Assembly (NCBI GenBank): GCA_003152695.1
Contig: PMAT01000028.1
Location: forward strand, 63,498 to 95,605
Length of the DNA: 32,108 nt
Direction: 5' to 3'
Source of the DNA: Acidobacteriaceae bacterium
GTDB taxonomy: Bacteria > Acidobacteriota > Terriglobia > Terriglobales > Acidobacteriaceae
Shown here: positions 3,515 to 19,324 of the stretch, piece by piece
How positions within the stretch are numbered: position 1 is the first letter of the stretch
Layout: every line of letters begins with the position of its first letter
Position numbers and translations under genes: made by a program
Notes under the pieces: model-generated
Seen by the model: the letters and a program-made list of their open reading frames with translations, nothing else
Told to the model about the DNA's origin: nothing
Databases searched by the model: none

Positions 3515-4465
3515 ATGGCAACCAGCCCAATCACGAAGCCCCTACAAAACGTTGAAGCCAAGCACATCCGGATTATCGGCGTACCGCTCGACCTCGGTCA
3601 GTCGCGCCGCGGGGTTGACATGGGACCCTCGGCAATGCGCGTCGCCGGACTCGAGGCCAAGCTCGAGGCCCTGGGCTACGAAGTCGAGGATGGCGGCAAC
3701 ATACCCGTCGCTTTGGCCGAAACCAAGTCGGAAGGCGATCCTAACGCCAAGTACCTGAAGGAAATCACCCAGACCTGCTCGAAAGAAGCCGAACTCGTGG
3801 TGAAGACCTTGGAGGCCGGAAAAATTCCCATCGTTCTCGGTGGCGACCATTCCATTGCCGCCGGCACAGTGTCTGGCGTGGCCGAGTTTTATCGCCGCAA
3901 GAACCAGCGCATCGGTCTGTTGTGGATTGACGCGCACACCGATATCAATACGCCCGGCAGCTCACCCAGCGGCAACGTGCATGGCATGCCATTGGGTGCC
4001 ATCATGGGACTGTTCGAGTCTCCGCTCACCGACCTGTATGGCTTCAGTCCGAAAGTACAACCCGACAACTGTGTGCTGGTGGGCATTCGCGACGTCGACA
4101 ATCACGAGCGCGAAAACATCAGGAAGTCACGCGTACACGTCTTTACCATGCGCGACATTGACGAACGCGGCATGCGCTCGGTGATGGAGGAGGCCCTCCG
4201 CATTGCTGGACGCGGCACCGTGGGCTATCACGTCTCGCTCGATCTGGACTGGATCGATCCCGAAGATGCGCCGGGCGTCGGCACTCCGGTTTGGGGCGGC
4301 GCAACCTATCGCGAGGGACACCTGGCGATGGAGATCATCGCCGACCACGGGCGCATGCTCAGCTTCGAACTGGTGGAAGTGAACCCGGTCCTCGATGAGC
4401 GCAATCAGACAGCGGAGTTGGCGGTCGAGTTGGCGCTGTCGGCATTTGGAAAGAAAATACTTTAG
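3515..4465 (+). CDS. rocF: Arginase (ureohydrolase family)
   Basis: This 316-residue protein would hydrolyse L-arginine to ornithine and urea using two Mn2+ ions. The metal-binding residues are visible: GGDHS (His112), DAHTD (Asp139, His141, Asp143) and SLDLDWIDP (Asp243, Asp245). SGNVHGMPLG around residue 156 and ELVEVNP around 285-291 are the substrate-side motifs of true arginases, which favours arginase over agmatinase or formiminoglutamase. Length matches the 300-320 aa norm. The Shine-Dalgarno is poor (AGAGAA). No urease or ornithine-aminotransferase gene lies nearby, so the pathway role (nitrogen release or polyamine supply) is open. Confidence 0.92.
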   Translation: MATSPITKPLQNVEAKHIRIIGVPLDLGQSRRGVDMGPSAMRVAGLEAKLEALGYEVEDGGNIPVALAETKSEGDPNAKYLKEITQTCSKEAELVVKTLEAGKIPIVLGGDHSIAAGTVSGVAEFYRRKNQRIGLLWIDAHTDINTPGSSPSGNVHGMPLGAIMGLFESPLTDLYGFSPKVQPDNCVLVGIRDVDNHERENIRKSRVHVFTMRDIDERGMRSVMEEALRIAGRGTVGYHVSLDLDWIDPEDAPGVGTPVWGGATYREGHLAMEIIADHGRMLSFELVEVNPVLDERNQTAELAVELALSAFGKKIL

Positions 4466-4477
4466 AAATCAGTGACA

Positions 4478-4504
4478 GTCCTGCCGGGCTAGGACCCCTT
4501 TTAG
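4478..4504 (+). terminator. Possible weak terminator after arginase gene
   Basis: GTCCT (4478-4482) and AGGAC (4491-4495) can pair in a 5-bp stem, followed by CCCCTTTT. The stem is short; it is a plausible but weak transcription end before ddl. Confidence 0.35.
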
Positions 4505-4550
4505 GGACATCGCCCCCAGCAACCCGCCTCTTTCACGTTAAGATGCAGTC

Positions 4551-5744
4551 ATGCAGAAACTCCGGGTAGGTGTCCTGTTCGGCGGGCGCAGCGGCGAGCA
4601 CGAAGTCTCGTTGCTTTCGGCCGCCTCGGTCCTGAACGCCATCGATAAGAAGAAATACGACGTTGTTCCCATCGGCATCACCAAGGAAGGCCGATGGGTC
4701 ACTGCGGCGCACGCCGAGCGCCTGTTGCGCGGCAACCTGCCAGAAGCAGCCGAGCCGCGCCATCTGCGCGCCGGCGATCCCGAGACCACCTCCGCCGCTG
4801 CCGTCCTGGCCAAAGGCGAAGCCGTGGTAGTGCCGCCCATGCCGGGCGAAAACCATTCCGCGCTAATGCCGTTTGAGACGCACTCTAGGGAATTGCACGC
4901 GGCGCCCAATTCGATTGACGTGGACATCATCTTCCCCGTTCTGCACGGCACCTTCGGCGAAGACGGCACCATACAGGGCTTGCTGGAGCTTGCGGACATC
5001 GCCTATGTCGGCGCAGGCGTGCTGGGCTCTGCTGCCGGCATGGACAAGGGCGTGATGAAGCGCCTCTTCCGCGACGCCGGCCTGCCCATCGTGAAGCACG
5101 TCACCGTGCTGCGCAGCGCGTGGCAGGAACAACCCAAAAAAGTGCGCAAGCAAATCGAATCCGCGCTGAAATATCCCGTGTTTGTAAAGCCGGCAAATCT
5201 GGGCTCGTCGGTCGGGATCAGCAAAGTGCACAATGCTGGCGAACTGGCCGCGGCCATGGACGAGGCGGCGCGCTACGATCGCAAGCTGGTGATCGAGCAG
5301 GGCGTCGGCGGCACAAAGAGCAAGGCCCGTGAGATCGAATGTTCCGTGCTGGGCAATGACAACCCTATCGCTTCCCTGCCCGGCGAGATCGTCCCCGTGA
5401 AAGAGTTTTACGACTACGACGCCAAGTATCTGGTCGAAGGATCGGAGTCGATCATCCCGGCCAAGCTCACTAAAGCCAAACAAAAGGAAGTGCAGCAACT
5501 CGCGATCGCGGCCTTCAAGGCGGTGGATTGCGCCGGCATGGCACGCGTGGACTTTCTCCTGGATCCACGCCGGGGCAAGGTGTACGTCAACGAAGTCAAC
5601 ACCATTCCCGGCTTCACCTCCATCAGCATGTATCCCAAGATGTGGGCCGCGACGGGAATCGATTATCCCGAACTAATGGACCGGCTGATCCAACTTGGCT
5701 TGGAGCGCCACGCGGAGAAAAAGCAGAACCAATACAGCCGGTGA
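4551..5744 (+). CDS. ddl: D-alanine--D-alanine ligase
   Basis: ATP-grasp ligase of 397 residues that joins two D-Ala for peptidoglycan precursors. Motifs in order: FGGRSGEHEVS (10-20), LHGTFGEDGTIQG (131-143), GMDKGVMKRLF (163-173), VKPANLGSSVGISK (212-225), EFYDYDAKY (285-293) and NEVNTIPGFTSISMYPKMW (347-365). The YDYDAKY loop with Tyr is typical of D-Ala-D-Ala enzymes; D-Ala-D-Lac ligases of the VanA/B type differ here. Residues 60-115 are a longer, Ala-rich insertion than in E. coli DdlB, as in DdlA-like forms. No mur or fts gene is adjacent, so the gene is outside a dcw cluster. The start has only a weak purine stretch upstream. Confidence 0.95.
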   Translation: MQKLRVGVLFGGRSGEHEVSLLSAASVLNAIDKKKYDVVPIGITKEGRWVTAAHAERLLRGNLPEAAEPRHLRAGDPETTSAAAVLAKGEAVVVPPMPGENHSALMPFETHSRELHAAPNSIDVDIIFPVLHGTFGEDGTIQGLLELADIAYVGAGVLGSAAGMDKGVMKRLFRDAGLPIVKHVTVLRSAWQEQPKKVRKQIESALKYPVFVKPANLGSSVGISKVHNAGELAAAMDEAARYDRKLVIEQGVGGTKSKAREIECSVLGNDNPIASLPGEIVPVKEFYDYDAKYLVEGSESIIPAKLTKAKQKEVQQLAIAAFKAVDCAGMARVDFLLDPRRGKVYVNEVNTIPGFTSISMYPKMWAATGIDYPELMDRLIQLGLERHAEKKQNQYSR

Positions 5745-5802
5745 CGCTAACCCTTTTCCTGCGGGAGCGTCTATTTCAGCAAGCAGGGAGCGATGCTCGT
5801 GA

Positions 5803-5845
5803 GGGGCGTGCGCGAAGTTCCACTCCGCTAAGTAGCGTATGCCCC
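5803..5845. terminator. Hairpin downstream of ddl
   Basis: GGGGCGTGCGC (5803-5813) can pair with GCGTATGCCCC (5835-5845) over 11 bp with two G-U wobbles in the plus-strand transcript, leaving a 21-nt loop. It lies 59 nt after the ddl stop and lacks a U-tract. It may mark the 3' end of the ddl transcript. Confidence 0.35.
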
Positions 5846-5903
5846 GGGCACCGCAAACTGCCTTTCCGTATCTCCTGATTCGCAACCACGGAACAAACGC
5901 AGT

Positions 5904-5933
5904 CTCCTCCTCGTAACAAGCAACGAGGAGGAG
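5904..5933 (+). promoter_or_regulatory. Perfect 11-bp stem-loop sequestering the Shine-Dalgarno of the DUF4097 gene
   Basis: CTCCTCCTCGT (5904-5914) and ACGAGGAGGAG (5923-5933) are exact reverse complements around an 8-nt loop (AACAAGCA). The right arm is the Shine-Dalgarno, 5 nt before the GTG start at 5939. In the RNA the ribosome-binding site would be fully paired, so translation should need the stem to open. This is the architecture of an RNA thermometer or of a site freed by a protein, sRNA or upstream ribosome. Confidence 0.65.
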
Positions 5934-5938
5934 TTCGC

Positions 5939-6730
5939 GTGCGTAAAACCTTCCTAATTATTCTCCTGTGCCTCTCAGTGCTCGATGTTTCTGCTTTTGC
6001 CGAGGAATGGAGCAAAACTTATCAGGTCGGCGACAAACCCACTTTGCGTGTGGACACTAACGACGCCTCGGTTGAAATCACGCGCGGAGCCAGCCGCACG
6101 GTTTCAGCCCGTGTGATTGCCGAGGGCTACAGCATGGGAGGGAGTGGCGTGCGCGTCACCGAGCGCCAGGACACCCACAAGGTTGACCTGCAAGTCCACG
6201 TGCCAAACAACTGGGGCATCCACATCAGCACCCATCGAGGAGTGCGCATCGAGGTGCAGGTTCCCTCGGAAACCGCTCTGGACTTGCACTCTGGCGACGG
6301 ACACATCGGGGTCGATGGCATCTCCGGGCAGGCCCGCATCGATACTGGCGATGGACACATTCAGGTTCGCAACTTCAATGGCGGACTGCACGCCCACACC
6401 AGCGACGGCCACATGACCATTGATGGCGTGCTGACCGACCTTGACCTGCGCACCGGCGATGGACATATTGACCTCACGGTGCGGCCGGGTTCGAAGATGA
6501 GCAATGGATGGCTGATTCACACCAGCGACGGCGGGGTGGAGGCTCGACTTCCGCAGGACTTTGCCGCCGAGCTTTACGCTCACACTGGCGACGGCCACAT
6601 CCAGTTGGACATGCCGGTTACGGTGAACGGGTCCATCGAGCGATCGCGCATTCGGGGCAAGTTAAACGGCGGCGGACCGCTGCTGGAGATCACCACCGGC
6701 GACGGCAGCATCCACATCGGCAAGTTCTGA
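5939..6730 (+). CDS. Secreted DUF4097-like beta-repeat protein
   Basis: This 263-residue protein begins at GTG with a signal peptide (about residues 1-22, hydrophobic core LIILLCLSVLDVSAFA, cleavage after AFA). The mature part resembles DUF4097 (putative adhesin, beta-helix-like). It has seven short repeats built on (T/S)GDGHI: SGDGHIGVDG, TGDGHIQVRN, TSDGHMTIDG, TGDGHIDLTV, TSDGGVEARL, TGDGHIQLDM and TGDGSIHIGK, spaced roughly 18-45 residues. Such repeats suggest a right-handed parallel beta-solenoid in the periplasm or at the surface. The biochemical role is unknown. The Shine-Dalgarno is strong but locked in a perfect hairpin. It converges on the M28-family lipoprotein gene with a 13-bp gap. 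Confidence 0.8.
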   Translation: MRKTFLIILLCLSVLDVSAFAEEWSKTYQVGDKPTLRVDTNDASVEITRGASRTVSARVIAEGYSMGGSGVRVTERQDTHKVDLQVHVPNNWGIHISTHRGVRIEVQVPSETALDLHSGDGHIGVDGISGQARIDTGDGHIQVRNFNGGLHAHTSDGHMTIDGVLTDLDLRTGDGHIDLTVRPGSKMSNGWLIHTSDGGVEARLPQDFAAELYAHTGDGHIQLDMPVTVNGSIERSRIRGKLNGGGPLLEITTGDGSIHIGKF

Positions 6731-19184: not shown

Positions 19185-19324
19185 CGGGGAGTGCGGGCCT
19201 TCAGGCCCGCGTCATAACCGCTCGCACAATTCCTAAGCTTCAACCGCTGAGGTCGTTGACCTCAGCGGCTGAAGCGGTTTTTCTTCCTGTCCTTGGACGC
19301 GGGCCTGAAGGCCCGCACTACCCG
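19185..19324. repeat. REPIN-like element: two inverted hairpins around a central hairpin
   Basis: The outer arms (19185-19213 and 19296-19324) are reverse complements with one mismatch in 29. Each arm is itself a hairpin: GCGGGCC-TTCA-GGCCCGC (19193-19210) and GCGGGCC-TGAA-GGCCCGC (19299-19316). Between them GCTTCA(A)CCGCTGAGGTC-GTT-GACCTCAGCGG(C)TGAAGC (19237-19275) makes an 18-pair stem, followed by GGTTTTTCTT. Two inverted REP units with a spacer is the REPIN layout. Confidence 0.75.
19237..19286 (+). terminator. Central hairpin plus T-tract, terminator-like
   Basis: The 18-pair central stem of the palindromic element is followed on the plus strand by GCGGTTTTTCTTCC. It has the form of an intrinsic terminator, but no plus-strand gene ends here, so termination is probably incidental. 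Confidence 0.4.

Follow-up and report, generated by a model that had tools for sequence, protein, structure and literature searches.

A predicted promoter nested inside a hairpin over the Shine-Dalgarno sequence of an Acidobacteriaceae Toastrack gene

In RNA thermometers of the Shine-Dalgarno (SD)-sequestering kind the SD is paired in cis, and in IS10-like elements inverted repeats shield the transposase in such a way that read-through RNA hides its start, whereas RNA from its own promoter does not. In phage T4, the late genes I-TevI, I-TevII, I-TevIII and segB, as well as others such as soc and e, possess a stable hairpin which hides the SD in RNA from upstream promoters; at I-TevI the SD is hidden only in RNA from the early and middle promoters, the late promoter starting too late for the hairpin to form (PMC2988022). 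Likewise, in B. subtilis a hairpin is proposed to block translation of sigG from RNA reading through from the spoIIG operon, whereas transcripts begun at the promoter of sigG itself are unable to fold it (PMC5942855).

The locus considered here lies in a window of 32,108 nucleotides (the whole stretch of DNA analysed) from an Acidobacteriaceae bacterium, whose genome comprises 4.5 Mb in 141 contigs and, among named relatives, stands closest to Acidobacteriaceae assemblies that bear the labels palsa and bog. Its relevant features are the following.

4551 to 5744, plus strand: ddl, D-Ala-D-Ala ligase (Pfam PF07478/PF01820), upstream of the DUF4097 gene and a possible source of read-through RNA
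5747 to 5751, plus strand: predicted -35 of promoter P2 (CTAAC), just 3' of the ddl stop codon
5768 to 5774, plus strand: predicted -10 of P2 (CGTCTAT), with the same motif conservation as the P2 -35
5780 to 5856, plus strand: conserved structured RNA element with the stem GGGGCGTGCGC / GCGTATGCCCC, at the beginning of the predicted P2 transcript
5890 to 5894, plus strand: predicted -35 of promoter P1 (GGAAC)
5904 to 5914, plus strand: left arm of the hairpin (anti-SD), CTCCTCCTCGT, the exact complement of 5923 to 5933, made up of the second half of the P1 spacer and the first three bases of the P1 -10
5912 to 5917, plus strand: predicted -10 of P1 (CGTAAC), its CGTA invariant in the genus and conserved across the family
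5915 to 5922, plus strand: hairpin loop, AACAAGCA, the rest of the P1 -10 and the approach to the predicted P1 start
5923 to 5933, plus strand: right arm of the hairpin, ACGAGGAGGAG, which includes the SD GAGGAGGAG and by computation pairs strongly with the anti-SD of 16S rRNA
5939 to 6730, plus strand: DUF4097/Toastrack protein gene with orthologs, GTG start, 263 aa, exported (Pfam PF13349, E 1.5e-12)

Direct reading of these positions bears out the first-pass annotation, which had described two exactly complementary arms of 11 bp around an 8-nt loop, with the SD in the right arm 5 nt before a GTG start. All 11 pairs are Watson-Crick, and the right arm is followed by TTCGC and then by the GTG at 5939. 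The isolated hairpin has a computed folding energy of -19.7 kcal/mol, and the surrounding region (5850-5990) folds with a z of -2.83. The annotation had also called so complete a sequestration unusual. In the 32-kb window just one other perfect stem of at least 11 bp with a loop of 3-12 exists, the two together standing against 0.1 expected from mononucleotide shuffles, and the hairpin occurs once in the genome. Elsewhere in the window, a perfect 11-bp hairpin followed by a T-rich run is flanked by palindromic GCGGGCCTTCAGGCCCGC-type repeats (19193-19211, 19244-19268, 19300-19318).

The gene itself is real, its same-genus orthologs being full-length and sharing its start. The protein begins with a signal-like N-terminus, MRKTFLIILLCLSVLDVSAFA, and belongs to the DUF4097/Toastrack family by a PF13349 score of 47.9 bits against a gathering score of 22.9. 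The earlier term beta-repeat fits the Toastrack domain, which is described as a right-handed beta-helix and is tied to envelope stress systems, some of which include a sigma factor linked to them in an operon (PMC11237479).

The left arm of the hairpin coincides with what is predicted to be promoter DNA, the last three bases of the arm being the first three of the P1 -10. Among the 76 orthologs whose upstream sequence was collected, almost all of them belonging to the family, GGAAC-N16/17-CGTA is found exactly in 67 (66 at spacing 17 and one more at N16; shuffle mean 0.16 of 76), with one match at another forward spacing (22) and one on the reverse strand; at L033 the -35 reads AGAAC. Similarly, CT[AC]AC-N16-CGTCT, the P2 motif, occurs at spacing 16 in 43 of the 76 (shuffle mean 0). 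Each promoter has one dominant spacing among the orthologs, and each combines the AAC-like -35, the spacer of 16-17 nt, the CGTA or CGTC -10 and the conservation in orthologs (P1 67/76, P2 43/76) that mark ECF promoters. P1 is then a predicted, conserved promoter of ECF type, to all appearances the gene's own stress promoter, and P2 is a second, ECF-like candidate; no sigma-70-like promoter was found on the plus strand in 4000-5938. Usual ECF spacing puts the RNA start shortly downstream of the -10, and P1 would start at about 5921-5925. As RNA begun downstream of the -10 would lack the left arm, the hairpin could not hide the SD of P1 transcripts, and since the left arm lies within the P1 -35/-10 spacer, a lock is possible only in RNA begun upstream.

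Genome-wide, GGAAC-N17-CGTA is not enriched (26 matches versus 30 in the reversed control), nor is GGAAC-N16/17-CGTATC in excess over the reversed control, and the P1 regulon would therefore be small or loose. In the same genome, intergenic GGAAC-N17-CGTA precedes two CAAX-protease-like membrane proteins and a MacB-like permease (L126, L137, L141), sites which possibly represent an envelope-stress regulon. At L132, an ECF sigma gene with GGAAC-N17-CGTA at its end is followed by a zinc-finger anti-sigma-like gene.

The two P2 boxes are invariant in the genus, where 13 of the 16 spacer sites between them vary, and the extended form GCTAAC-N16-CGTCTAT is present as a single copy in each genome except G005, which has two, and only before the RNA element. 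The placing of P2 differs between this genus and its relatives. In relatives outside the genus carrying both promoters, P2 begins exactly 9 nt after the start of P1, such that the promoters overlap, whereas in this genus it precedes P1 by 135-144 nt, with the RNA element between them. The overlap at a fixed 9-nt offset suggests double sigma control. Overlapping GGAAC-N17-CGTA and CTMAC-N16-CGTCT motifs are seen before DUF4097 genes of several genera, in the orthologs L062-L118 (e.g. L068 and L113).

The reading that we favour, and hold to be probable, is that of an insulating hairpin in which the gene's own promoter is nested, and which would block translation (or transcription) of RNA started upstream while P1 transcripts escape. 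P1 would start RNA past the left arm and so produce a short leader with its SD out of reach of the hairpin, whereas RNA from P2, or read-through from ddl where ddl adjoins, would carry both arms and form the 11-bp stem that hides the SD. In G005 the hairpin followed by nine T residues resembles an intrinsic terminator and would stop upstream RNA before the start codon. Production of the Toastrack protein would accordingly depend mainly on an active P1 sigma factor, and P2 could yield the structured RNA element without protein production. In this scheme the sequence itself shows both promoter motifs and how well they are conserved, the pairing and its retention within the genus, and the T-tract of G005, whereas the start sites, the sigma factors and the action of the lock in cells are what we infer. 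Read-through from ddl cannot be the general reason for the lock, since a minus-strand gene pair parts ddl from P2 in G001. This pair, situated between ddl and the P2 element (L035, about 1900-2720), is toxin-antitoxin-like, consisting of a helix-turn-helix protein and a small protein as called by eye from the translations.

Computed folding of the two RNAs agrees with this arrangement in that the SD of the long RNA is enclosed by the hairpin, as in promoter-nested hairpins of the T4 I-TevI and sigG type. In the long RNA, which contains both arms, the computed SD accessibility is 0.00 in five of the six genus members and 0.14 in the sixth, and the RNA folds with a z of -3.46. The P1 RNA folds no better than its shuffles (z 0.29); its SD can pair with early codons, giving a computed accessibility of 0.02-0.18 in the genus, below the mean of 0.37 for P1 RNA in the other orthologs, and at L033 the computed accessibility is lower in the P1 RNA than in the long RNA. 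The translational control put forward in the first-pass annotation is plausible in part: the SD is lockable, and the inner stem is kept in all six same-genus orthologs, but the normal P1 mRNA should carry no such lock.

On sequence grounds and by analogy, the locus would work like T4 I-TevI and sigG. As described for I-TevI, RNA from the nearer promoter would begin past a hairpin arm and so free the SD, as predicted from sequence; unlike the temporal control of a phage by late promoters, the predicted promoters here are chromosomal, of ECF type, and serve a protein that is exported, with an RNA element lying between the two. With sigG the locus shares a GTG start and would share a hairpin restricted to read-through RNA, but the hairpin of sigG has 20 bp or more and is associated with sporulation sigma factors, whereas that described here has 11 bp and ECF-like promoters, and exists in a terminator version in one species. 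In contrast to IS10-like elements, no transposon is seen at this locus, which is unique. With RNA thermometers it has in common that the SD is paired in cis; it differs in that the left arm should be absent from P1 RNA and in that the perfect, GC-rich stem stays closed to 75 C in the computation.

Another account concerns the main product of P2. The structured element, aligned and folded from seven copies in six genomes, was found by an RNA model search of 120 genomes in the six same-genus genomes only, and Rfam 15 gave no match in the window and none at E <= 1 for 5700-5990. A second copy with its own P2 lies 3' of a second, paralogous ddl (G005:C74, 22942-23043; L075), has no recognisable same-strand gene downstream, and has at its end a hairpin that resembles an intrinsic terminator, with a T-run. 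P2 and the element can thus apparently stand alone as a small-RNA-like unit, and the element is possibly a new small RNA; a short ORF within it (beginning ATGCTCGTGAGG) was rejected, as a 2-nt gap in L035 breaks its frame. The hairpin at the DUF4097 locus could be the terminator stem at the 3' end of a small RNA that P2 makes as its main product, a stem shared with the SD of the DUF4097 gene and with P1. Such a function is conceivable although we doubt it. In its favour are the stand-alone copy and the nine T residues that follow the hairpin at the DUF4097 locus of G005 (L036), where it is called as a terminator. However, a T-tract is present in only this one of the six genus members. The other five, our window included, have none, and in the window, where no intrinsic terminator was called, the hairpin runs directly into TTCGC; the element's want of an Rfam match likewise speaks against this function, which overlaps with the insulating hairpin and is not opposed to it.

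A further question is whether the pairing does anything at all. A CU-rich spacer might match a purine-rich SD by chance, with the arms kept by the promoter, by the SD and by short divergence, and the hairpin decaying slowly and idle. The SD accounts for the right arm and the -10 for three bases of the left, and the comparison extends to just six close genomes. In their alignment 92.4% of the cells are paired and seven of the 11 pairs are invariant; two pairs vary on one side, G-U being retained in one member, and no compensatory double change was found among these six. Three of the six have lost the outermost pair, one of those the next pair as well, and another member the innermost; the outer pairs break freely. 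The leader alignment across relatives proposed at the outset accordingly gave a divided answer, with the stem conserved within the genus, yet devoid of compensatory changes and absent outside it. Three points stand against coincidence, namely the rarity of a perfect 11-bp stem, the two G001 changes, tolerated as G-U pairs with the stem preserved, and the distribution of variable sites, which number one of six in the inner left arm versus eight of nine in the rest of the P1 spacer (Fisher p 0.011, post hoc), even though the bases beside the -10 vary freely in P1 sequences of other genera. This low variability supports selection on the left arm, and we regard an idle hairpin as unlikely. Complementarity between spacer and SD exceeds shuffles in all six genus members (p <= 0.005), but in other genera it occurs at the chance rate (3% of 65 orthologs at p <= 0.05), from which the lock would be a derived trait of the genus, placed upon an older promoter. 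Short hairpins near the P1 -10 that include SD bases, and may be due to chance, are seen at L055 (G070; CACCTC-CTAGC-GAGGTG), L014 (G015) and L008 (G013).

The first-pass annotation had envisaged a regulated switch, and a thermosensor, a riboswitch platform or a site for a protein or sRNA on the long mRNA would all be of this kind. The conserved, structured element upstream in the same P2 RNA, with the hairpin at the position of an expression platform, invites this comparison. However, the P1 transcript would escape the lock, neither arm was found to have another partner to pair with, the second copy of the element (G005:C74) heads no recognisable same-strand gene, and the loop differs among genus members in both sequence and length (7-8). 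Moreover, the perfect stem is very stable at all plausible temperatures in the computation: in the long RNA the SD is open to a fraction of 0.001 at 45 C and 0.022 at 75 C, such that the stem does not open within the physiological range as that of an RNA thermometer would. A switch is on these grounds improbable. A thermosensor in particular is unlikely because the stem remains closed to 75 C, the loop is unconserved and P1 RNA should avoid the hairpin, and since the left arm is P1 promoter DNA, a thermal, sRNA or protein key acting on the gene's normal mRNA is without support. A more elaborate variant, to which we attach little weight, would make the P2 element an RNA sensor, either akin to a riboswitch or acting as a small RNA in control of its neighbour, with the hairpin as its output stage, an SD lock in most species and a terminator in one, and with P1, starting inside that stage, as a bypass that ignores the sensor; the result, a gate with two inputs governing a single exported stress protein, would have arisen by the parting of two ancestrally overlapping ECF promoters. 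Lastly, although a dyad centred near a -10 occupies the classical position of an operator, it is very improbable that a dimeric repressor covers the P1 -10 by binding the inverted repeat, given that the spacing of the dyad is not fixed (loop of 8 versus 7), that the dyad is absent from the P1 sites of other genera and that the right arm is accounted for by the SD.

If the insulating hairpin is what it seems, a mechanism known mainly from T4 and proposed for sigG would gain an example from a bacterial chromosome, with promoters of ECF type, and the birth of the lock would be traceable, the promoters overlapping with a 9-nt offset in relatives and standing apart here, where the hairpin arose at P1. 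More generally, a striking SD hairpin in raw sequence can belong to the architecture of promoters, not to the main mRNA of the gene. For the Acidobacteriaceae, the analysis yields two candidate promoter motifs, both well conserved, ahead of a gene for a Toastrack protein, whose domain is linked to envelope stress responses.
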